A stretch of 64,000 bases of DNA from Spirochaetaceae bacterium (GTDB taxonomy: Bacteria > Spirochaetota > Spirochaetia > Treponematales > Treponemataceae), in assembly GCA_017618015.1 (NCBI GenBank), contig JAFZVC010000007.1, forward strand, positions 1 to 64,000, in the 5' to 3' direction. The position numbers and the translations under genes were made by a program. The notes beneath the pieces were generated by a model. The model did not search any database. It was not told the DNA's origin and worked only from the letters and a program-made list of their open reading frames with translations. The first letter of the stretch is position 1. Each line of letters starts with the position of its first letter. Shown piece after piece: positions 44,432 through 58,613 of this stretch.

Positions 44432-47400
44432 CTAATTGTTCAGGCACAGAGCCGGAACAAGGCCTCCAGCAACGCTTGGCTCCCAACCATAGTTCTGGGT
44501 GATAGAACCGGTATTTGTCACAAGCATCTTAGTATTAACTGAGCCTGGTGAACGTAACCACCAGTTACCGCCCTTATTCACATCTGACTGGTCGGTTTCA
44601 ACACCGCTTGCCATAGCAAATTCAGTCGGTTTCCTGACTCTTAAACTGTCATTGGTCGAACCATCAGAAGCAAAACCATAGCTATCGCTGTTCGTAGCTT
44701 CGGCATTACTAAGCAAGAAAACCTTGTCCTCTGTTGGATCACAGTCTGTGTTATCAACCGTTGTCGTTGCAATCATCGCCTTTAATGCACTTGTGAAAGC
44801 CGTATTGTAAAAATCACCGGTGATGTAGCTTCGGATTCCACTAACATTATAAGCATCATTGCCATTTTCATTATAACGATGGGCAATTAATATATTTTCC
44901 GCAAGCAAGAGCTTCTTTCCAGTACTGTTGTAGTCTTCTGTAATAACGCGCCACTTTATTGGCTCAACTTTGAAGTAGTATTCCGTTCCGTTCACAAGCG
45001 TTGTTCCGCCGGAGCATGTGTAGTTACTATTTGTAGGATATGGACTTGCGCTTCTTTTCGCGTACCAGTTGCCGTCGCTTCCTTTGTAGTAGGTGAAGCT
45101 TCCCCTTGTAAGAGTCTGAGCTGTGTCAATATTAACGCCGGAGGCTTTTATTGTCTGAGGCCAGTCGCCGAACAGCGCGTAAGAAGTATCTTCTGTTCCA
45201 GCTGTACCGTTCGTTCCTGCCGGAAGCATTGTCACGGAGTCATGGAAACTGTAACTTAACGAGCGCACGACGCGGAAACCAGTTTTCGATCCTGCAACGC
45301 CCATTTGTACGTCACCCCGTTTATACACAGCACACCAATTATTACCAGTATTATTATTTTCACAAGAACCACCACGATTGACGCGACGAGTACCGGACTC
45401 AGCACCGGTTGCCCCAGTCGATGAGCTTATGTTATCGGCATGCCAATCCCAGCACATCTCCCATACGTTACCGCTCATGTCATATATTCCCAAAGCGTTC
45501 GGATTCTTTGTCTTTGCTACTTGCGGATGACCGCCCGAGCTGTTGCCCTCATACCACCCAACTTCTCCTAAAATATCGCTTCCGCTGTAATGGGTCTGTC
45601 CTGAATTGGTCAGGTTTCCACTTCTCGCAAGATATTCCCACTCCGCTTCTGTCGGGAGACGGTAGCCGTCCGCGTTGGAATTATATGTCACATTATTACC
45701 GTTTATCGTATAACACAGCGTAAGGTTTTTAGCTTCACTCAAAGCATTGCAATAAGCGACTGCGTTATACCACGTCACATCATACACTGGATAGTCATCA
45801 CCAAGACTCGTACTAGCCGGTACATTACTCATATAAGTGTTCCATTCTTTTTCAGTAACTTCGTGGTCGCACACGTACAAATCCGGGATTATAAGCTCGC
45901 GGTCTGATATGAACACCTCAGAGCCTGTAATTGCCGATGAACCGCTGAAATAAGCCCCCTGAACATAAAGCATGTTCAGCACTTCCGGGTCTTCCTCGAA
46001 AACACGAGCGGCGAGAGCTTCAGGACTTGTGGCATAAGCGTTGTACGAACTGTTCGCAAAACCTTTATCTTGCGTAGCTGCCAGATAAGCTTCTTTTGAA
46101 CCTTTTGGTACATAGAATTTTAAGTTGTCACTACAATTAGAAAAGTTTTTACGATTGGAATTAACAGCTAAATCTACCGGAGTACTTGATTTGAAATGAA
46201 CTTCCGTTAAATTTGTACAATATTCAAAACTCCAATCATCAAGAACAGAAACAGAACTAGAAAATATAATCTTTTTTAATGCACTGGAATTTCTGAATGC
46301 ACAATACGGTACTGTATCACAAGTTAAACCAGATAAATCAGCCTCTTCCAATTTGTTGCAGCTCGCAAATACAGAATCTCCATCCGATGTAAATATGGTA
46401 ATCTGGTTGAGTCCGTTTATTCTGACAAGGTTTTTGTTACCTCGGAAAGCCTGCATTCTAAGCTGAGTTACAGTGTTAGGCAGAGTAAACTCCGCTCCGC
46501 TTTTTGCTGCCGGATATTTTATAAGTTCTGTTTTTGTGCTGTTATAAAGGACTCCATTTTCTACAGAAAAATACGAGTTTCCGTCATTGGGCATCTTAAT
46601 TTCTGTCAAATTATTTGCTTCCTGGAACTCCTGAGAACTTATAGACTGAACATTAGAAGGTAACGTGATAGAAGTAACCTTCGAAGGAACCCAAACACTA
46701 AGGCTTGTTATTGCCGTATTAGACAAATCGAGCGAAGCACCGCTGGCATAAGAGCTTGAAAGATTTGTAAACAGAGTCGAAAGATTTGCATTTGTAAAAT
46801 CAGAAGAGGCAACTAAATTGTACGATGTTCCTGTCGCAAACGTCATATTTGCGACAGACGATGATGTAACCAAAGTACCAAGCTTAAGTTTTCCTTGAGA
46901 GTCCAGCACATAATCATTGCTGCCATTCGGCGTTACTGCGAATTTTCCGGTTTCATTCGCGAGCGTAACTCCGGTTCCAGCGGCAACTAATGCAGAGGTT
47001 CTGGAGTAACTTCCCGGCGTAAGAGTCGCAACGGGAGAGTCTCCTGTGAGCGAGCTGTATACGGTGACTGTAGCGACATCACTACCAGAGTTCAGCCAAA
47101 TATCATTTCCAGACGCGACGATTGCGCTACCACCCATATTCAGAGTTCCAGTCTCAAAGATTATACCGCTTCCTTTTACTGTTGCTGTATTGTTCTTGAT
47201 GATTCCGCCTGTAAACGTCACAACAGAACCGATAATACTCAAACCACCGCCGTTATTCGACTCGTTAAAGCTGATTTCGCCACCTTTCATTGTAAACTGA
47301 CTACCATACCCATCAATCCGAACTCCACCGGCATAACAACTGTCACTAGAGGGAGCGGTTTTATTGTAGCTTATAGCTCCACCAGAAAGCTCAAAAATCG

Positions 47401-49165
47401 CACTGCTTCCTTCCGAAGTGACACCACCCACATATCCAGTACTGCCATTATACGAGATGTGTCCGCTATTCATTTTGAGAGTGCCTTTGTTGTATACCGC
47501 TCCGGCTTCTCCGCCATTTGAATAGTTATTATAAATACCGCCAGAGAGTGTCGCAGTTGTATTTATCGCACTGTACCCCAGATACGCCGAAGCACCCACC
47601 GCGTTATAAAGGCCTCCACCATACATAGCATAGTTAGAACTGTTGCTCGTACTGTTCGGTGCTGCCGTTACACTCTTATCACCGATAACCGCACTTTCGT
47701 ACATAAAAAGCGTTCCGGCGTTATACACACCACCGCCGCCTCCATTTCTTTCTCCCGAACCCGAATAAGTGGCTTTATTTCCGGTAACAACCGCTCCGTT
47801 AGCAAGCGTAACTTTCGCACCGCTCGCAATATTAATTCCACCACCGTTAATTGCCTCTCCACCGGTGATTTTGAGGTTCCTTATCGTAATCGGTACGGTC
47901 GTGGCGATTGTAAGAACAGAGTCATTGCCAGTTCCGTGAAGGATGTCCTGAGGTACGCCTGAAGCGTTAAGCCCGCGCTGTCCCAAAATCGTTATGGAAC
48001 GGGCTTTCGACGTTGTTATCGCGTTTGTTGCGGTTGACGAAACAACTACATTCTCACTAGCCGTGCCGCTTATTCGGATTGTATAGTCTACCGAACCGCT
48101 TCCTGTCTGCGAGATTTTTTCAAGAGCCTTGCCAACTGTCGCATAAGGTTTCGCGGCAGAACCGTCACCGGATGTATCACTTCCGGCACTTCCGTCCGAT
48201 GGTTTTCCGACAAAGAACTGAGTGCGTTTGAAAAGCTCCACGAGGGCTGCCGTGACCTGGAACTGACCAGAGTTGTTTATCGGGTCGAGCGAACCGCCGC
48301 CAGAAACCCAAGTATTTGTCGTTAATCTCGGGTATACGACTATTAACTGTGTCGTTGAAAAAACAAGCTCACTGTCTTTTTTGAAATCGATTGTGACGTA
48401 GTAATTACCGGAGGCGATCCCTGTTAAAGATATAGTTCCAGACGAGAGTCCACCCTGCCATGTGGAAGGTCCTGCTCCACCAGTGTTGCTGCAGGAAACA
48501 GCAGTTATTGCAACATCGTCATAAAGACTGGTTTCCGGCTCGGTAAAAGAAAGAGTTACGGAGCCTGTGCCCGACGACAGCGGTTTAAGAATGAACGAGT
48601 GGCTTATGTTCAGACCGTCCGCGGAAAGCACGGACGGCATTGTGTATGTATCTGAAAGGATAGTTTGAGTGCTAGACTCGCCAGTACTCTGATCAGTAAC
48701 AGTCTTATTCGCAGAAACAGTGATTTTCCACTTGTACCCGGTAACGAGCGGGATGGTGAACGTGCTTGCACTGTCATTTACCGTGCCGGACGAAGTTTTT
48801 GCTGGATTTGTTCCATCTGATGCGGTTTCAACGGTTTCCGCAGTTACGGTGTATGTTACGCCAGTCGGAAGATTTGGCTTCGCGTTACGGGCATCTGTGC
48901 CGCCGGATGAATTGTCGTTTCTGTAAAGAGCGGATAACTCACTTGGGACAGCTCCGCCATTCGGAAGGGATGTTTCGAAGCTGCCCGTAAAATTGACTAC
49001 AGCCACGCCAGAGTTGCTGGTGCCAGCAGTTTGGGGAGGATCTGATATTACAGGCTCGAAAAGATTGCTGCAAGAGGTGTTAAACAAAAACGCCACAAGA
49101 AGCGCGACAAAGACAGCGCGCGCCATATTCAGACTTTTTCGACAATTATCCGTTTTTAGAATCAT
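44432..49165 (-). CDS. Multi-module lipoprotein: beta-helix, LRR, SUMF1, DUF6273
   Basis: A 1577-residue surface lipoprotein, the first gene of its operon. The lipobox is NTSC within MARAVFVALLVAFLFNTSC, so the true start may be the ATG of that segment (about 49126) rather than the ORF start at 49165. Modules in order: Ig-like beta region; beta-helix repeats (about 340-720); BspA-type LRR (~800-1000, SKVTSITLPSNVQSISSQEF); a formylglycine-enzyme-like domain (~1070-1320, YRLPTEAEWEYLARSG and DMSGNVWEMCWDWH) with Cys residues 11 apart rather than the catalytic 5 apart; and a DUF6273 tail ending LVPALCLNN. It is likely a ligand-binding protein, not an enzyme. Confidence 0.82.
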   Translation of the reverse strand: MILKTDNCRKSLNMARAVFVALLVAFLFNTSCSNLFEPVISDPPQTAGTSNSGVAVVNFTGSFETSLPNGGAVPSELSALYRNDNSSGGTDARNAKPNLPTGVTYTVTAETVETASDGTNPAKTSSGTVNDSASTFTIPLVTGYKWKITVSANKTVTDQSTGESSTQTILSDTYTMPSVLSADGLNISHSFILKPLSSGTGSVTLSFTEPETSLYDDVAITAVSCSNTGGAGPSTWQGGLSSGTISLTGIASGNYYVTIDFKKDSELVFSTTQLIVVYPRLTTNTWVSGGGSLDPINNSGQFQVTAALVELFKRTQFFVGKPSDGSAGSDTSGDGSAAKPYATVGKALEKISQTGSGSVDYTIRISGTASENVVVSSTATNAITTSKARSITILGQRGLNASGVPQDILHGTGNDSVLTIATTVPITIRNLKITGGEAINGGGINIASGAKVTLANGAVVTGNKATYSGSGERNGGGGGVYNAGTLFMYESAVIGDKSVTAAPNSTSNSSNYAMYGGGLYNAVGASAYLGYSAINTTATLSGGIYNNYSNGGEAGAVYNKGTLKMNSGHISYNGSTGYVGGVTSEGSSAIFELSGGAISYNKTAPSSDSCYAGGVRIDGYGSQFTMKGGEISFNESNNGGGLSIIGSVVTFTGGIIKNNTATVKGSGIIFETGTLNMGGSAIVASGNDIWLNSGSDVATVTVYSSLTGDSPVATLTPGSYSRTSALVAAGTGVTLANETGKFAVTPNGSNDYVLDSQGKLKLGTLVTSSSVANMTFATGTSYNLVASSDFTNANLSTLFTNLSSSYASGASLDLSNTAITSLSVWVPSKVTSITLPSNVQSISSQEFQEANNLTEIKMPNDGNSYFSVENGVLYNSTKTELIKYPAAKSGAEFTLPNTVTQLRMQAFRGNKNLVRINGLNQITIFTSDGDSVFASCNKLEEADLSGLTCDTVPYCAFRNSSALKKIIFSSSVSVLDDWSFEYCTNLTEVHFKSSTPVDLAVNSNRKNFSNCSDNLKFYVPKGSKEAYLAATQDKGFANSSYNAYATSPEALAARVFEEDPEVLNMLYVQGAYFSGSSAITGSEVFISDRELIIPDLYVCDHEVTEKEWNTYMSNVPASTSLGDDYPVYDVTWYNAVAYCNALSEAKNLTLCYTINGNNVTYNSNADGYRLPTEAEWEYLARSGNLTNSGQTHYSGSDILGEVGWYEGNSSGGHPQVAKTKNPNALGIYDMSGNVWEMCWDWHADNISSSTGATGAESGTRRVNRGGSCENNNTGNNWCAVYKRGDVQMGVAGSKTGFRVVRSLSYSFHDSVTMLPAGTNGTAGTEDTSYALFGDWPQTIKASGVNIDTAQTLTRGSFTYYKGSDGNWYAKRSASPYPTNSNYTCSGGTTLVNGTEYYFKVEPIKWRVITEDYNSTGKKLLLAENILIAHRYNENGNDAYNVSGIRSYITGDFYNTAFTSALKAMIATTTVDNTDCDPTEDKVFLLSNAEATNSDSYGFASDGSTNDSLRVRKPTEFAMASGVETDQSDVNKGGNWWLRSPGSVNTKMLVTNTGSITQNYGWEPSVAGGLVPALCLNN

Positions 49166-49234: not shown

Positions 49235-50557
49235 TTATATAAGGCATGTCATATAAACAGGAAGATACGTTATTCCGTCTTTTTGGCTTAAATCCTCGGT
49301 GTGAAGAACAAACGACTCGTCCAATTGCTCCGAATACTTTGCCCGGAATTTCTTCAAAGATGTCAGCGTGTATCTTTTCCCCGATTTTACTTCCAACGGC
49401 GACACATTATGTCTGTTTGTCGTTTTTGACTTGGCAAGAAGAAAATCTATCTCCATTCTGTCATCTTTATCATTCCGTGACGGATTCGAATAAAAATACA
49501 AGCGGCGGTCGTTGGCAGTGAGCATCTGCGCAACTATGTTCTCAAAAATCATTCCTTCGTTTACTTCAAGCTTTCCGAAAAGCAGTTTCTTATAAATTTC
49601 TTCCGAAACTATTCCTTTCTCGTCAAAGGCGTGGCTTATAAGAAGCCCTGTATCTGCCATATACATCTTGAAAGCTGAATAATCCGTGGAATTATAGCAG
49701 ATGTTGGCAATCATTGAATCTTCAAGCCAAAGGAATGCGCTTTCGTAATTCCTGAATTTCGCGCCCTTCCTGAGTGCGGAAAGAGTAAATTTTTTCTCGT
49801 GTTTCGAAAGCTGCGCCGGAATTTCATCAAAAATGCTTTCAACCTTGCTTTCATACCCTTCGGCATATTTTTTTATATCTGACCTGTACAATGAAAGTAT
49901 ATCCCTTTTTACCAAATCGACCGACTCAAAATCGCTGCTTTCAACATATTCTTTTACGGCTTGCGGCATACCACCTATCACAAGATACTCGCGGAAAAGA
50001 GTCATGACTTTGCGGTGCATTGCCTGACCAAGAGGTTTTCTGTTCTTGAAACAGTCGTTCACGAGCGGCATGATAAGCTCTTCGCCTTTTGCCCAAAGAA
50101 ATTCCTCGAAATCCATAGGATACATTTTTATATGCCTTTCTTCCGACGGGATGACAATATCCTTGACGTTTTTCTTTATGGACACCAACGAACCTGTTTC
50201 AATAAAATCGTACCGTCCATCTGCCACCAGGAATTTGATTGCGGCCCTTGCCCTTGGACACAGCTGAACTTCATCAAAAATAATGAGGGATTCTCTTTCG
50301 TACAGTTTTACATTATAGGCAGCCGAAAGATACATAAAAAAACTGTCGAGATTTCTTAGGTTCATGTCGAAAAGATTTTCAATTTCTTTTCCAACCTCGT
50401 TGAAATCAATCAAGATGTAAGACTTATAGTTGTTCTCTGCGAATTGCTTAACAATAAAGCTTTTGCCGACACGCCTTGCACCGTCGATCAACAAAGCGTT
50501 TTTGCCTTTATTGTTTATTTTCCATTCCAAGAGCTTGTTTTCTATCTTTCGTTTCAT
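49235..50557 (-). CDS. AAA-type ATPase with DUF4143 C-terminus
   Basis: A 440-residue ATP-binding protein. The P-loop is DGARRVGKS (about 27-35) with the following FVKQFAENN; Walker B is LIIFDEVQLCPRA. After a linker comes the DUF4143 region with EVKSGKRYTLTSLKKF near the end, a restriction-nuclease-like D/E-x-K pattern. Such proteins are common in mobile genomic contexts and their function is unclear. The ATG at 50557 is preferred; the frame runs further upstream only because three 33-bp repeats are multiples of three. No good ribosome-binding site precedes it. It is divergent from a GNAT gene. Confidence 0.82.
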   Translation of the reverse strand: MKRKIENKLLEWKINNKGKNALLIDGARRVGKSFIVKQFAENNYKSYILIDFNEVGKEIENLFDMNLRNLDSFFMYLSAAYNVKLYERESLIIFDEVQLCPRARAAIKFLVADGRYDFIETGSLVSIKKNVKDIVIPSEERHIKMYPMDFEEFLWAKGEELIMPLVNDCFKNRKPLGQAMHRKVMTLFREYLVIGGMPQAVKEYVESSDFESVDLVKRDILSLYRSDIKKYAEGYESKVESIFDEIPAQLSKHEKKFTLSALRKGAKFRNYESAFLWLEDSMIANICYNSTDYSAFKMYMADTGLLISHAFDEKGIVSEEIYKKLLFGKLEVNEGMIFENIVAQMLTANDRRLYFYSNPSRNDKDDRMEIDFLLAKSKTTNRHNVSPLEVKSGKRYTLTSLKKFRAKYSEQLDESFVLHTEDLSQKDGITYLPVYMTCLI

Positions 50558-50561
50558 ATTA

Positions 50562-50646
50562 CGCACCAAAACAAGATTATCACAAGGATATTTTCGCACC
50601 AAAACAAGATTATTGCAAGTAGAATTTGGCACCAAAACGAGATTAT
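50562..50646 (-). repeat. Three 33-bp direct repeats (iterons) before the ATPase gene
   Basis: The core CACCAAAAC(A/G)AGATTAT occurs at 50564-50580, 50597-50613 and 50630-50646, exactly 33 bp apart; the inner spacers differ. The exact three-turn spacing just upstream of the ATPase start suggests a protein-binding operator array or a recombination site. Confidence 0.7.
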
Positions 50647-50745
50647 TGGCGCGAATGGCGGGCACGCCCTTAATATAATTAAACATTGAAGAATCGGCTT
50701 AGTCGGTGTATACTAGTAGAATACATTAAAATACAGGAGAAACAA

Positions 50746-51344: not shown

Positions 51345-54300
51345 ATGAAAAAAGCGTTTTTAATTCTTGCGGTCATTTTTATTGCAGCGGGCGTTTTTGC
51401 CCAGAGTGCGGCGTACACGAAGTACGTGAAGCTGGCGAAAGACTACGAGGCGAAAAAGCAGTGGGCGTTCGCGCTCAACGCCTGGTACGATGCCCTGGGC
51501 TGTGACGATGCACCGGCTCTGAAAACAGAAGCCCTTAACGGTTACAAAAAACTTTCAGAGACAATTTACGACGGAAACCCCGGATATGGAAACTTTAAGG
51601 GTTCAGCCCTACATGACGAATGGATAAAACTTCTGATTGATGCAGAAAAACTCGGAAACACAATCTTCACCTATGAGCTGACTTTAGGCAAGCTTGAAAA
51701 GCAGAGCGGCACTTCGAACTACACGGCTAAAATCGAGTTCAAAGAGTCCGACCGCTACCTCAAAACGATAGGTGTCATTCAAAAAGGTTTGGCGGTTGAC
51801 AATGAATCATCCTTCGACGACCATTCTCGTTGGGGGGAAGCCTGGCCGTCGGGGTGGCCTCGGTCTCCTGCAAGCCTGATGGACTCAGCAAATGAAATTC
51901 CGAAAAATCTGGCGTACAATATAGACGGCGTAAAAATTTTTGAAGTTCCTGCAGAATATGCAGAAAAATTTTATTTTTATTACCAAGACTTGAATAGTCC
52001 TAGTGTATTTCGTTTTAACGCGTTTGCCCCGATTTCATCAGGCTTAAGAGTCGGTCTTTACGACTATAAATTCAACATCGTAGACAATAAAGGCAAGGAA
52101 CTTTTCAAGGGCAAACGCTGGCTGCTCGGCGACGGAGACGGAATCACGCTTACGGATATCCCTGCCGACGTCGCAAAACTGATTGACAGCGGCAAGGCGT
52201 TCCTGAACCCGGTCGCGGTATACCTTCAATACGGAAAGTATAATCCCGCCGATGACAAGGGCGGACGCACTTTCATAAAGAATTTTCCGGAAGCACAGCT
52301 CGATATGTCTACGGCTGTAATTTACTGCTGGAACAAAACAGAAGACAAAATCAAAAAAAACTTTGATGAAGCTCTTTTTGAAAGCAAAAAAAGTGCGCTG
52401 ACATCGTATGATTTCATTCCCATAAAAGGCAAGAACTTTGAGATCGGAAAGACGGAAGTCACCCAGAAATTTTATGAAGCGGTGATGGGGTCAAATCCGA
52501 GCTTCCATAAGGGAGAGAATCTTCCTGCAGAAGGAATAAGCTGGTACGATGCGCTTTATTTCTGCAATGAATTGAGCAGACTTTCAGGATTCACACCTGT
52601 ATATTCCGTGAACGGCGAGACAGACGTAAAAAAATGGGACTATGTTCCGCACAAAGGTAAATCCTTGAAAGGTGAGATTGATTATAATCCTTATGCGGAC
52701 GGTTACAGGCTGCCAACGATTGAAGAATGGCGGTATGCCGCAAAGGGCGGAGAAAACTATGTATACGCCGGCAGTAGCAACATATATGAGGCTAGCTGGT
52801 TCCGTTACAATAGCGATGACAAAACCCACCCTGTCGCACAAAAAAAGCCCAACGGCTACGGACTTTACGACATGAACGGAAACGTATACGAGTGGGTATG
52901 GAATGAAAGTTCTGATTATTTATCGTCCGATGCCCCTCATGCGAACTACACTGTATCAGGAAGCTATTTTGTCTGGTTCGGTAATGAGGGTGTCAGCGAT
53001 GCGGAGTCGAGCGGACACGGTCGTGATAATGATATAGGTCTTCGACCTGTACGCACAATTAACATAAAGGTTGAGCCGCTGGACGTAAAGAAAGCCTTGA
53101 AGTCGTATGAGCTATCATTTCTTTCAGATGTCGGTTTTGAAATAGGAAAGACGGAAGTTACGCAGCAGCTTTACGAGGCGGTCATGGGAAAAAATCCGAG
53201 CTGGATAAAGGGCGTAAATCTTCCTGTGGAACACGTAAGCTGGTACGATGCCATTTACTTCTGCAATGAGTACAGCAGGCTTTCAGGATTCAAACCAGTG
53301 TATTCCGTGAACGGTGAGACGGACGTAAAAAAATGGAATTACATACCGCACAGCGGAAGCGCCATTGAAGGTGAGATAGTACAGATAAACAGTGCGGACG
53401 GTTACCGTCTGCCCACGAGTGAAGAATGGTTGTATGCCGCAAAGGGCGGAGAAAACCATGATTACAGCGGCAGTTACAATATTGATGAAGTCGGCTGGTA
53501 CGGTGGAGTGCCGTTCTTTAACTTCGAAGGGGGAAACAGTGAACACAGGGCACATCCCGTCGCGCAGAAAAAGGCAAACGGCTACGGACTTTACGACATG
53601 ACCGGTAACGTTAGCGAGTGGGTATGGTCAACTTCAAAACAAAAAGTTGCCTATGGCAGTGACTGGGACACTACAAGCCCAGGACTTTCATACACCAGGA
53701 AATATGACGGTGCCTTCAAAACCTCAAGTATCGGTTTCCGCGTAATGCGTCTGCCTGATGCCGGCCACAAGATCACATCGGCTTCGGAAATAAATAGAAT
53801 CATAAACTCTTATAAACTTGCTGCAATTCCCGGCAAGGAATATGAAATCGGAAAGACGGAAATAACCCAGGCCCTGTACAAAGCGGTAACAGGTGATAAT
53901 CCAAGCTGGTGGGTTAGGGATGAACTTCCTGTAGAACGCGTGAGCTGGTACGATGCCATTTATTTCTGCAATGAATTAAGCCGTCTTACAGGAAAGACTC
54001 CCGTGTATTCCGTAAACGGAGAATCTGATGTCACCAAATGGAACTACATTCCGAACAGCGGTCAGAGCATCAACGCCACAATAAATCAGAATATGGAAGC
54101 GGACGGTTACAGATTACCTACGCTTGAAGAATGGTATTTTGCCGCAAAGGGCGGAGAAAACTACACATACAGCGGCAGTGACAATCTGGATGAAGTCGGC
54201 TGGTATGGAGAAAACATAAACAAGACGCATCCTGTCGCACAGAAAAAGGCAAACGGATACGGACTTTACGACATGAGCGGCAACGTCGAAGAATGTGTTT

Positions 54301-57300
54301 GGTATAAACCCGACTGGGACGACGAGGACGAAGTTCTTGCTAAAGGCGGTTCTGTAAATACGACCACTAGTGATCTTAAGGTGCCAGCAGGGCCTTACGA
54401 AGAGGTGGGAGATATACTCTTCGACTATTTTTATGGATACGAAAATTCCACATACCGTGGCTTCCGCCTAGCGCGAAATAAAGATGCGAAACAGAGTGGG
54501 CTTATTGCAATTCCAGGTAAGAACTATGAAATCGGAAAGACAGAAGTTACGCAGGCTGTATATGAATCTGTAATGGGTGAGAACCCGACTTACTTTAAGG
54601 GAAAAAACATTCCTGTAGGAAACATCAGCTATTACGATATGCTTTATTTCTGCAACGAATACAGCAGGCTTTCGGGACTTACCCCGGTATATGCCGTGAA
54701 CGGTGAAACCAACGTAAAAAAATGGAATTATACGCCACACAAAGATGAAACCTTGAAAGGCAAAATTACGATGGACGAAAAGGCAAACGGCTACAGATTG
54801 CCTACGGTTGAAGAATGGCAGTACGCAGCGAAGGGCGGAGAAAACTACACATTCAGCGGAAGTGACAGTTATTTGGATGTTGCACAGTATAGCGGATGGG
54901 GATTCGGTGATTTGAAGACAAAACCTGTCGCACAGAAAAAGGCAAACGGCTACGGACTTTACGACATGAGCGGTAACGTCGAGGAATGTGTTTGGTGTGG
55001 AGGAGACGGCTGGAACGGCTATTTTTTGGCTTATGGCGGTCATACAGCGAGTGGAGAGGAATATTTTAAGGTGATAAATATAGCGGGAGCTTCTGGGAGC
55101 TATGGGTTATCCAACAAATATTATGAATACCAAACTTCCATATACTTTGGCTTCCGCATAGCGCGCAACAAAGAGAGAGGAGCGAAGCCGAGTGGGCTTA
55201 TTGCAATTCCTGGTAAGGACTTCGAGATTGGAAAAACAGAAGTTACGCAGGCTTTATATGAATCTGTAATGCGTGAAAACCCGAGTTACTTCAAGGGAGA
55301 AAATCTTCCTGTAGAAAACCTCAGCTATTACGATATGCTTTATTTCTGCAATGAATACAGCAGGCTTTCAGGACTTACTCCGGTATATGCCGTGGACGGT
55401 AAAACCGACGTAAAAAAATGGAACTATGCTCCGCACAAAGGTGAAAAATTGCAAGGTACAATTACGATGGACGAAAAGGCAAACGGCTACAGATTGCCTA
55501 CGCTTGAAGAATGGCATTACGCGGCGAGGGGCGGACAGAATTTTACTTACAGCGGAGGTGACAATATTGATGAAGTTGCATGGCCTTCTGAAATCATTTA
55601 TTCGAATGCGCATCCTGTCGCACAGAAAAAGGCAAACGGATACGGACTCTATGACATGAGCGGTAATGTATGGGAATGGCTCTGGGACAATGTAAATGAA
55701 ATGCGTTATAGCAGCGGCGGAGCATGGAATTCTTCGGCCTCAGCTTCTGAGGTTTCCAGAAGGAACGTTGGCGGTGCTGCCAACCGTAAAGACGGCTTAG
55801 GGTTCCGCATAGTCAGAAACATAATCAGAAAGGCAACCGTAAAACCCGTTGAAGACGCAAAAACTGTTGAAGAACTGGCTCCTGCGCCGGACAGAGAAGC
55901 GAAGCCGAGTGAGCTTATTGCAATTCCAGGCAAGAACTATGAAATCGGAAAGACAGAAGTCACGCAGGTTGTATACGAATCTGTAATGGGTGAAAACCCG
56001 AGTAAGTATAAGGGAGGAAATCGTCCTGTAGAAAACCTCAGCTATTACGATATACTTTATTTCTGCAACGAATACAGCAGGCTTTCAGGACTTACTCCGG
56101 TATATGCCGTGAACGGTGAAACCGACGTAAAAAAGTGGAACTATAATCCGCACAAAGGTAAAAACCTGAAAGGTACAATCACGATGGACGAAAAGGCAAA
56201 CGGCTACAGATTACCTACGCGTGATGAATGGAAGTACGCGGCGAAGGGCGGACAGAATTTTAAATACAGCGGAAGTGACAACATTGATGAAGTTGCATGG
56301 CGTTATGAAAACAGTGATTTGATGATACATCCTGTCGCACAGAAAAAACCAAATGGCTACGGACTTTACGACATGAGTGGTAACGTCGAGGAATGGGTTT
56401 GGTATAAACTATTAGGTTGGGCAGACGGCTATGGTATTGCTTTAGGCGGTACTGTAAATCAGATGACTGAATGTCTTGAGGTGGACAATGTGTTACCCAT
56501 CGAATGTTACGTATATCATGAATCCGACCCTTATCAGTACCGTGGCTTCCGCTTAGCGCGCAACAAAGATGGCATCGAAATCGGAAAGAGAGATGCGAAG
56601 CCGAGTGAGCTTATTGCAATTCCAGATAAGAACTTTGAAATCGGAAAGACAGAAGTTACGCAGGCTGTATACGAATCTGTAATGGGTGAAAACCCGAGTA
56701 AGTATAAGGGAGAAAATCTTCCTGTAGATACCCTTAGCTTTTACGATATACTTTATTTCTGCAACGAATACAGCAGGCTTTCGGGACTTACTCCGGTATA
56801 TGCCGTGGACGGTGAAACCGACGTAAGAAAATGGAAATATGCTCCGCACAAAGGTGAAACCTTGAAAGGTACAATTACAATGGACGAAAAGGCAAACGGC
56901 TACAGATTACCTACGCGTGCAGAATGGGAGTACGCGGCGAAGGGCGGACAGAATTTTACTTACAGCGGAAGTGACAATATTGATGAAGTTGCATGGCATT
57001 ATGATAATAGTGATGTGAAGATACATCCTGTTGCACAGAAAAAACCAAACGGCTACGGACTTTACGACATGAGCGGTAACGTCGAGGAATGGATTTGGTA
57101 TAGCTCGAACCGCTATGGTGCTGCTTTAGGAGGTAAGGTAACTGATGACATTAGATTTTTACAGATGCTAGGTGAAGTCTGCGTATATGATAAATTCGAA
57201 AGTAAATGGTACCGTGGCTTCCGTTTAGCACACAACAAAGATGCGAAGCCGAATGAGCTTATTGCAATTACAGGTGCGTCGGATAGAGAAGAGAAGCCGA

Positions 57301-58613
57301 ATGAGCTTATTGAAATTCCAGGCAAGGACTATGGAATCGGAAGTACAGAAGTTACGCAGGCTCTATATGAATCTGTAATGGGTGAAAACCCAAGTTACTT
57401 TAAAGGAGAAAACCTTCCTGTAGGAAGTGTGAGCTGGTACGATGCCATTTATTTCTGCAATGAATACAGCAGGCTTTCAGGTCTTACTCCGGTATATGCC
57501 GTGGACGGTAAAACCGACGTAAGAAAATGGAACTATGTTCCGCACAAAGGTGCAATCCTGAAAGGTAAAATTACGATGGATAAAATGGCAAACGGCTATA
57601 GATTGCCTCTGTTTGAAGAATGGAAGTACGCGGCGAAGGGCGGAGAAACCCACACATACAGCGGTAGTGGAAATATGGATGAAGTTGCATGGCACTGGGA
57701 CAACAGTGATGTGCTGATACATCCTGTCGCACAAAAAAAACCAAATGGCTACGGACTTTACGATATGAGCAGCAATGTCATGGAATGGGTTTGGGATGAC
57801 CAATACGGCCGTGAAGATAGCTATGGTACTGCTTTAGGCGGTACTGTAAATACGAACACTAAATTTCTTAAGGTTAACAATTTGTCCCCCCTCACATTTG
57901 ATAAATCCGAATGTGCGTGGTTCAACGGCTTCCGCATAGCGCGCAGCAAGGACGGTGTCGAAATCGGAAAGAGAGAAGCGAAGCCGAGTGAGCTTATTGC
58001 AATTCCAGGCAAGAACTATGAAATCGGAAAGACAGAAGTTACGCAGGCTGTATATGAATCTGTAATGGGTGAAAACCCGAGTCACTTTAAAGGAGAAGAC
58101 CTTCCTGTAGAAAGTGTGAGCTGGTACGATATGCTTTATTTCTGCAATGAATACAGCAGGCTTTCGGGACTTACTCCGGTATATGCCGTGGACGGTAAAA
58201 CCGACGTAAAAGAATGGAAATATGTTCCGCACAAAGGTGAAATCTTGCATGCTGAAATTACGATGAACGAAAAGGCAAACGGCTACAGATTACCTACAAG
58301 TGAAGAATGGAAGTACGCGGCAAAGGGCGGACAGAATTTTAAATGCAGTGGAAGTGACAATGTTGATGAAGTTGCATGGCATAACGATAACAGCAGAGGC
58401 AAGACACATCCCGTCGCACAGAAAAAACCAAACGGCTACGGACTTTACGACATGAACGGCAATGTCATGGAATGTGTATGGGATTCTTTTTATGCTTTAG
58501 GCGGTTATTACAGTCAAATCCCTAAATCTATAGGGATAGATTCTTCCACTCATCATTATAAATACGATCGTTTTTTTGACCGTGGCTTCCGCTTAGCCCG
58601 CAACAAAGACTGA
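51345..58613 (+). CDS. Giant secreted protein with nine tandem SUMF1-type domains
   Basis: A 2422-residue exported protein. A cleavable signal (MKKAFLILAVIFIAAGVFAQS) leads a ~340-residue N-terminal region beginning with a TPR-like helix. Nine SUMF1/C-type-lectin-like domains of ~230 residues follow, starting near residues 365, 600, 833, 1061, 1294, 1532, 1765, 1996 and 2226. Each opens EIGKTEVTQ, contains WYDA(L/I)YFCNE and ends NGYGLYDMxGNVxEWVW followed by a divergent segment and GFRxxR. The catalytic Cys pair of formylglycine enzyme is absent, so binding, not catalysis, is likely. Copies 4-9 are very similar. GGAGGAG precedes the ATG. No anchor is seen. Confidence 0.9.
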   Translation: MKKAFLILAVIFIAAGVFAQSAAYTKYVKLAKDYEAKKQWAFALNAWYDALGCDDAPALKTEALNGYKKLSETIYDGNPGYGNFKGSALHDEWIKLLIDAEKLGNTIFTYELTLGKLEKQSGTSNYTAKIEFKESDRYLKTIGVIQKGLAVDNESSFDDHSRWGEAWPSGWPRSPASLMDSANEIPKNLAYNIDGVKIFEVPAEYAEKFYFYYQDLNSPSVFRFNAFAPISSGLRVGLYDYKFNIVDNKGKELFKGKRWLLGDGDGITLTDIPADVAKLIDSGKAFLNPVAVYLQYGKYNPADDKGGRTFIKNFPEAQLDMSTAVIYCWNKTEDKIKKNFDEALFESKKSALTSYDFIPIKGKNFEIGKTEVTQKFYEAVMGSNPSFHKGENLPAEGISWYDALYFCNELSRLSGFTPVYSVNGETDVKKWDYVPHKGKSLKGEIDYNPYADGYRLPTIEEWRYAAKGGENYVYAGSSNIYEASWFRYNSDDKTHPVAQKKPNGYGLYDMNGNVYEWVWNESSDYLSSDAPHANYTVSGSYFVWFGNEGVSDAESSGHGRDNDIGLRPVRTINIKVEPLDVKKALKSYELSFLSDVGFEIGKTEVTQQLYEAVMGKNPSWIKGVNLPVEHVSWYDAIYFCNEYSRLSGFKPVYSVNGETDVKKWNYIPHSGSAIEGEIVQINSADGYRLPTSEEWLYAAKGGENHDYSGSYNIDEVGWYGGVPFFNFEGGNSEHRAHPVAQKKANGYGLYDMTGNVSEWVWSTSKQKVAYGSDWDTTSPGLSYTRKYDGAFKTSSIGFRVMRLPDAGHKITSASEINRIINSYKLAAIPGKEYEIGKTEITQALYKAVTGDNPSWWVRDELPVERVSWYDAIYFCNELSRLTGKTPVYSVNGESDVTKWNYIPNSGQSINATINQNMEADGYRLPTLEEWYFAAKGGENYTYSGSDNLDEVGWYGENINKTHPVAQKKANGYGLYDMSGNVEECVWYKPDWDDEDEVLAKGGSVNTTTSDLKVPAGPYEEVGDILFDYFYGYENSTYRGFRLARNKDAKQSGLIAIPGKNYEIGKTEVTQAVYESVMGENPTYFKGKNIPVGNISYYDMLYFCNEYSRLSGLTPVYAVNGETNVKKWNYTPHKDETLKGKITMDEKANGYRLPTVEEWQYAAKGGENYTFSGSDSYLDVAQYSGWGFGDLKTKPVAQKKANGYGLYDMSGNVEECVWCGGDGWNGYFLAYGGHTASGEEYFKVINIAGASGSYGLSNKYYEYQTSIYFGFRIARNKERGAKPSGLIAIPGKDFEIGKTEVTQALYESVMRENPSYFKGENLPVENLSYYDMLYFCNEYSRLSGLTPVYAVDGKTDVKKWNYAPHKGEKLQGTITMDEKANGYRLPTLEEWHYAARGGQNFTYSGGDNIDEVAWPSEIIYSNAHPVAQKKANGYGLYDMSGNVWEWLWDNVNEMRYSSGGAWNSSASASEVSRRNVGGAANRKDGLGFRIVRNIIRKATVKPVEDAKTVEELAPAPDREAKPSELIAIPGKNYEIGKTEVTQVVYESVMGENPSKYKGGNRPVENLSYYDILYFCNEYSRLSGLTPVYAVNGETDVKKWNYNPHKGKNLKGTITMDEKANGYRLPTRDEWKYAAKGGQNFKYSGSDNIDEVAWRYENSDLMIHPVAQKKPNGYGLYDMSGNVEEWVWYKLLGWADGYGIALGGTVNQMTECLEVDNVLPIECYVYHESDPYQYRGFRLARNKDGIEIGKRDAKPSELIAIPDKNFEIGKTEVTQAVYESVMGENPSKYKGENLPVDTLSFYDILYFCNEYSRLSGLTPVYAVDGETDVRKWKYAPHKGETLKGTITMDEKANGYRLPTRAEWEYAAKGGQNFTYSGSDNIDEVAWHYDNSDVKIHPVAQKKPNGYGLYDMSGNVEEWIWYSSNRYGAALGGKVTDDIRFLQMLGEVCVYDKFESKWYRGFRLAHNKDAKPNELIAITGASDREEKPNELIEIPGKDYGIGSTEVTQALYESVMGENPSYFKGENLPVGSVSWYDAIYFCNEYSRLSGLTPVYAVDGKTDVRKWNYVPHKGAILKGKITMDKMANGYRLPLFEEWKYAAKGGETHTYSGSGNMDEVAWHWDNSDVLIHPVAQKKPNGYGLYDMSSNVMEWVWDDQYGREDSYGTALGGTVNTNTKFLKVNNLSPLTFDKSECAWFNGFRIARSKDGVEIGKREAKPSELIAIPGKNYEIGKTEVTQAVYESVMGENPSHFKGEDLPVESVSWYDMLYFCNEYSRLSGLTPVYAVDGKTDVKEWKYVPHKGEILHAEITMNEKANGYRLPTSEEWKYAAKGGQNFKCSGSDNVDEVAWHNDNSRGKTHPVAQKKPNGYGLYDMNGNVMECVWDSFYALGGYYSQIPKSIGIDSSTHHYKYDRFFDRGFRLARNKD
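52416..58613 (+). repeat. Nine tandem ~700-bp coding repeats
   Basis: Repeat starts lie near 52416, 53125, 53824, 54506, 55201, 55919, 56620, 57313 and 58001, so the period is about 700 bp (range ~682-718). The ends of units (after the GNV motif) diverge much more than the starts. Nearly identical stretches such as GGCTACGGACTTTACGACATG occur in most units, which favours unequal recombination or gene conversion. Confidence 0.85.

Follow-up and report, generated by a model that had tools for sequence, protein, structure and literature searches.

A stretch of 64,000 nucleotides from a Spirochaetaceae bacterium (hereafter the window) contains three direct repeats immediately before the gene of a DUF4143 ATPase, which raises the question of what recognizes them and what they do for the gene. 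The original prediction had likened the repeats to an iteron array and proposed that they bind either the ATPase itself or a specific partner. Each repeat has a 17-bp core, CACCAAAACRAGATTAT, that reads ATAATCTYGTTTTGGTG in the direction of the gene (minus strand) and recurs with start-to-start distances of 33 and 33 bp (Table 1). The exact spacing, the single variable base (A/A/G in otherwise identical cores) and the position directly upstream of the start codon were all as predicted, the array ending 6 bp before the ATG (50555–50557) whose product start (MKRKI...) is conserved in all relatives. The window also lacks a visible Shine-Dalgarno sequence between the array and the start codon, as had been noted, although AGGAGG is present at this position in many relatives.

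The longest open reading frame on the minus strand (49235–50686) traverses the array (NNLVLVPNSTCNNLVLVRKYPCDNLVLVRN), and the repeats could be mistaken for part of the protein. This reading was rejected. The array frame is closed by stop codons in 103 of 129 relatives of the same subfamily and the conserved start lies downstream, indicating that the array is non-coding DNA. A generic genomic repeat, which would have refuted the prediction, was also rejected. The window has three perfect core matches and one with three mismatches, versus 0.38 expected from shuffles, and a search of the whole 3.28-Mb genome, where the locus lies on a 69-kb contig of the assembly, returned just the three array cores at up to two mismatches. 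Nor was the core enriched in the flanks of relatives (4 matches versus 2 for the reversed control).

Table 1. Features of the ATPase locus (plus-strand numbering of the window)
Feature	Position	Strand	Evidence or remark
AAA_14 + DUF4143 ATPase, 440 aa from MKRKIENKL	49235..50557	-	Pfam, PADLOC PDC-S01, conserved start (alignment)
Predicted nuclease motif D371...E389-x-K391	49385..49447	-	Alignment of 61 relatives, AF2 model
Loop, codons 357–367, before D371 strand of PD-(D/E)XK domain	49457..49489	-	Covariation, AF2 model
Residue 361	49475-49477	-	Covaries with core position -6
Residue 359	49481-49483	-	Covaries with core position -5
Apparent N-terminal extension of longest ORF	50558..50686	-	Not conserved; array in chance open frame
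Repeat core 3, gene-proximal	50564..50580	-	Sense ATAATCTTGTTTTGGTG; 6 bp from start codon
Repeat core 2	50597..50613	-	Sense ATAATCTTGTTTTGGTG
Repeat core 1, distal	50630..50646	-	Sense ATAATCTCGTTTTGGTG

The protein encoded downstream of the array has the conserved domains AAA_14 (PF13173, 82 bits) and DUF4143 (PF13635, 65.6 bits), both above the Pfam cut-off, and matches the PADLOC model PDLC04792 of PDC-S01 (E 7e-112). An AF2 model (mean pLDDT 88) has an AAA+ domain, a helical middle and a C-terminal domain resembling PD-(D/E)XK nucleases. Residues D371, E389, K391 and E339 are invariant in an alignment of 61 relatives; a catalytic role of D371...E389-x-K391 can only be inferred from the motif. 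A sequence search of the PDB returned nothing useful. The top fold match of the model was Sso1545 (PDB 2fna; E 2e-7, TM 0.41 by query length), followed by ORC, Apaf-1 and STAND-type ATPases. Sso1545 is an archaeal AAA+ ATPase with only 14% identity to the window protein, and no repeat array or function is recorded for it that could be compared. The window also contains a 2422-aa open reading frame (51345–58613, plus strand) with nine tandem matches to the FGE-sulfatase (SUMF1-like) domain and the gene of a 1577-aa protein (44432–49165, minus strand) combining BspA-type leucine-rich repeats with an FGE-sulfatase domain and DUF6273.

To learn how widely the array occurs, we gathered relatives by protein similarity alone, never by the repeat, and scored an array when its signal at lags of 32–34 bp within 200 bp upstream was reached by no more than 1 of 100 dinucleotide shuffles. 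Such an array precedes the gene in 118 of 128 loci from several phyla, with proteins 25–82% identical to that of the window, and 33 was the best lag (range 15–100) in 82 of the 128. The array was found in 75 of the 78 loci at 54–82% identity (Bacillota, Bacteroidota, Kiritimatiellota and others) and in 43 of the 50 loci at 25–60% identity from the window's order, a set that includes the window locus and the copies in its own genome. A further set gave a lag-32–34 score of at least 12 in 109 of 113 loci. No such lag peak was seen in the 250 bp past the gene, which served as the downstream control. Some loci are near-copies of each other and the counts are therefore not all independent. The array is nearly exclusive to the gene: a blind search of 32 genomes with a double-core pattern retrieved 23 arrays, of which 20 precede an intact gene and 1 a gene remnant, and the reversed pattern had no matches in the same genomes. 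Absence of the repeat upstream of homologues would have refuted the prediction; instead, an array of the same period accompanies nearly all of them. The 32–34-bp array is thus a hallmark of the family and not a local oddity.

In the window's subfamily, most arrays have three copies (80 loci) or four, spaced by 33 bp in 208 and by 34 bp in 48 of 265 intervals. Some clades place the array 40–95 bp away from the start codon. The array is also present in cultured strains with a species name, among them Segatella copri DSM 18205 (WP_006848557.1, three copies, 33 bp) and Agathobacter rectalis DFI.5.28 (WP_306784691.1, four copies). Two plasmid homologues at about 30% identity (Ruminococcus albus 7 and B. 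thetaiotaomicron) have weak or doubled periods; the score of a Fusobacterium plasmid homologue was not taken at the proper start. We also recorded 46–49 ATPase-related candidates at first look in each of four genomes (G680, G651, G672 and G692), an unusually large expansion in single genomes of one family.

Matches to PDC-S01 models, with E down to 1e-187, were obtained for the window protein and for those array-bearing relatives that were examined. A clear 32–34-bp array accompanies only three of the seven models (PDLC04786, 04788 and 04792), although the sample from the others is small and mostly, not uniformly, without it. Proteins with PDLC04787 as best match (n = 5) had no comparable array, with two weak lag-33 signals, and the only protein assigned to PDLC04789 had a weak 32-bp repeat. 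For PDLC04790, one of two best-match proteins had a 23-bp repeat; this array lies upstream of a DUF4143 gene (L182) and suggests that the array period may be clade-specific. One study places PDC-S01 fourth among the most common defences of prokaryotes and describes its members as fusions of ATPase domains to PD-(D/E)XK, without giving a mechanism (PMC12988326), in agreement with the original remark that such ATPases are common but unexplained. The same text rests the defence candidacy of PDC-S01 on genomic embedding only, with validation pending for most PDCs (PMC12988326). Among single loci in rumen genomes, PDC-S01 is the most frequent according to another study (PMC13356809). The PDC-S01 passages of these two papers do not mention the array that the window locus and its relatives have, and we found no published description of it in a literature search that excluded most subscription journals and all bioRxiv preprints.

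The prediction that the same core would recur upstream of homologues held for the period of the array but not for its sequence. Across the family only the 32–34-bp spacing is common and the core diverges, from the AATCTYGATTTGGTG-like type of the window's subfamily to others such as TTCGCTCATGTTTTAG, GTTGGAAAAGTGTCAA and ATTGCGATTTTGTGG. Paralogues in one genome also differ in core, as do the three in the window's genome, seven in G619 and six each in G651 and G690. Equal cores were not significantly rarer within a genome, however (1 of 81 same-genome pairs versus 87 of 2547; P 0.22, label shuffling).

The divergence of the core is matched by changes in the protein. We compared protein and core positions in 129 subfamily loci (effective number 79), counting the first G of the core GTG as position 0. 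Mutual information ranked residue 359 with core position -5 first among all pairs and residue 361 with core position -6 fourth, and each residue was the best predictor of its own base among all protein columns. Arginine or lysine at 361 agrees with G at -6 in 120 of 129 loci (both present in 91, both absent in 29; the other 9 are exceptions), and Y359 agrees with G at -5 in 124 of 129 (both present in 23, both absent in 101; the other 5 are exceptions). At least three of the exceptions appear to stem from a register shifted by one base; re-registering the cores made the register worse and we kept the original. Both residues belong to the same loop, before the strand that bears D371. Guanine is the base that arginine or lysine would be expected to contact when a protein reads DNA, and the pattern suggests direct reading of the core by the protein, as far as can be judged without binding data. 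Independent pairs on a tree from which the loop was left out were nearly always in the expected direction (3.8 versus 0.1 and 3.4 versus 0). They were too few for the tree-aware test to reach significance, and part of the covariation may therefore reflect shared ancestry. The loop differs in length in remote clades, for which reason an out-of-sample check of the two residues failed there.

The position of the core relative to promoter elements bears on its function. In 35 of 128 subfamily loci, a TATAAT-like hexamer begins with the base that follows the core GTG (17 at the next offset), and the Bacteroidales box TAnnTTTG lies at +3 (21 loci) and +12 (21 loci), with at most one locus at any other offset. 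Part of the -10 signal derives from the AT-rich flank of the core itself. No clear sigma-70 promoter could be recognized over the window's own array. In the subfamily, the core sits in the spacer directly upstream of the -10/-7 box, and a protein bound there would prevent initiation.

We consider it probable, in the absence of binding data, that the repeats are a private operator array that the ATPase-nuclease recognizes to regulate its own expression and that travels with its gene. Self-binding, the binding of several copies by a multimer and promoter repression are inferences. In this proposal, the AAA+/PD-(D/E)XK protein, probably as a multimer, would recognize a core of about 13–17 bp via its C-terminal nuclease-like domain, with the loop at residues 357–367 reading the middle of the core. 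It would occupy several copies about three helical turns apart and cover the DNA immediately before the -10 box, and its gene would be transcribed little until the protein is titrated or changes state. The diverging cores would stop the many paralogues of a genome from cross-regulating.

Some features of the array exceed what a repressor needs and are consistent with a second, less likely possibility: that the ATPase-nuclease docks on the array and is held there, assembled and inactive (or licensed), until an invader arrives, the array being part of the sensing. The covariation maps to the nuclease domain, beside the active-site strand, and not to a separate DNA-binding domain; typically three to four copies are held at 33 bp where one operator suffices; the nuclease motif is invariant; and the family is filed as a defence candidate in PADLOC and in its description (PMC12988326). 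However, plain autoregulation already explains the promoter position and the right spacing to the -10 box, and a second array elsewhere was not found. Equally tentative is a broader version in which the array is the core of an unknown defence principle: the self-bound state on an array read by the nuclease would set both expression and activity, and loss of the array or competition for it on invasion would free the nuclease. A defence role remains an inference in either case.

The partner that the original prediction offered as an alternative to self-binding, a different protein that regulates the gene from the array, lacks binding data to exclude it. We regard it as improbable and favour binding by the ATPase because core bases and ATPase residues covary in the subfamily. 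Furthermore, the unit that is transferred contains only the array and the ATPase gene, and the flanking DNA varies by locus.

This unit is apparent in copies that are 98–99% identical in different genomes and unrelated contexts (L046–L049 among them), where the common part is the array plus the gene, about 1.5 kb. For example, the segment common to L105 and L108 runs from the first repeat through the stop codon, and that of L046 and L047 from 144 bp upstream to 10 bp past the stop. The limits are likewise array plus gene in more distant pairs of copies (83–91%). At 82% identity, a Lachnospiraceae protein is closer to the window protein than are those of the relatives sampled around the window's own genome (60% at most), an indication of transfer between lineages. 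The array and the gene are inherited and transferred jointly. Such boundaries could also mean that the unit is a mobile element with the array as its left end, on which the nuclease would act to relocate it. This is doubtful, as the far side of the unit has no cores above control, the ends are ragged within one group of copies, and neither a target duplication nor an empty site was found (the latter searched for the window and L108); joint transfer by other means and selection explain the boundaries.

Decayed units were also seen. One locus has the array and a 3' remnant of the gene (L160) and two have the array and no gene (L155 and L199); these remnants were left by gene loss. A four-copy TTGGAATGGTG-type array without an ATPase lies directly before a DUF1848 gene (L174:1501–1640) and is either a promoter captured by another gene or a remnant. 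In L198, the start of a DUF4143 ATPase gene, a truncated copy, is followed by a different array and a second DUF4143 ATPase (28.8% identity), one unit on top of another. The right flank of L108 is a dispersed Prevotella repeat of about 220 bp with many copies in one Prevotella-like genus (G725, G760 and G761). We rejected a phage-borne element, since relatives of the protein were found in only 3 IMG/VR contigs and two of three queries had none. Arrays of two core types were absent from the viral contigs and a phage decoy is therefore not indicated.

In type III toxin-antitoxin systems, the toxin gene is preceded by an array whose repeats are about 36 nt long. The arrays of the ATPase family resemble those of ToxIN in having tandem repeats of similar length directly upstream of the gene and in the same orientation; they differ in having promoter elements at the gene-proximal end and no common RNA fold apparent in the seven arrays that were folded, and Pfam and PADLOC identify AAA_14, DUF4143 and PDC-S01 at the window locus and no ToxN-like toxin gene. 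Although this anatomy, with repeats that diverge together with the gene, would suit repeats that are transcribed to act as an antitoxin-like or leader RNA, we give this explanation the least credence: in many loci the -10 box comes after the last core or the one before it, so that transcription would begin downstream of most of the array, the folding of seven arrays was unremarkable (z -2.3 to +0.5, pseudoknots excluded) with no consistent fold, and no terminator separates the array from the gene in the window.

As a proposed self-recognized operator, the array also resembles other known systems. Plasmid iterons, which are bound by Rep proteins, are likewise direct repeats at nearly whole helical turns beside the gene of the (here presumed) binder, with which they covary and which they autoregulate. 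The usual spacing of plasmid iterons is 19–22 bp. The window locus differs in its 33-bp spacing, in the lack of an origin or replication gene (Pfam finds no Rep domain) and in its presumed binder, an AAA+/PD-(D/E)XK protein. The controller (C) proteins of restriction-modification systems regulate their own promoter, which travels with the nuclease system, and have operators that differ between relatives. The ATPase would share with these and other self-repressed defence genes the self-regulated, co-travelling promoter and the divergent operators. Unlike the C proteins, it would be regulator and nuclease in one protein, and its operator would be a direct-repeat array, not a palindrome.

These results turn a family of unknown function into a testable problem of DNA recognition, in which two named residues are predicted to read two bases. 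The array also offers a sequence-based way to tell which clades have a mechanism in common. Operator/repressor pairs that are orthogonal to each other are predicted to be about as many as the paralogues. If the array were indeed the core of a defence principle, the divergence of its cores would let tens of modules coexist in one genome.
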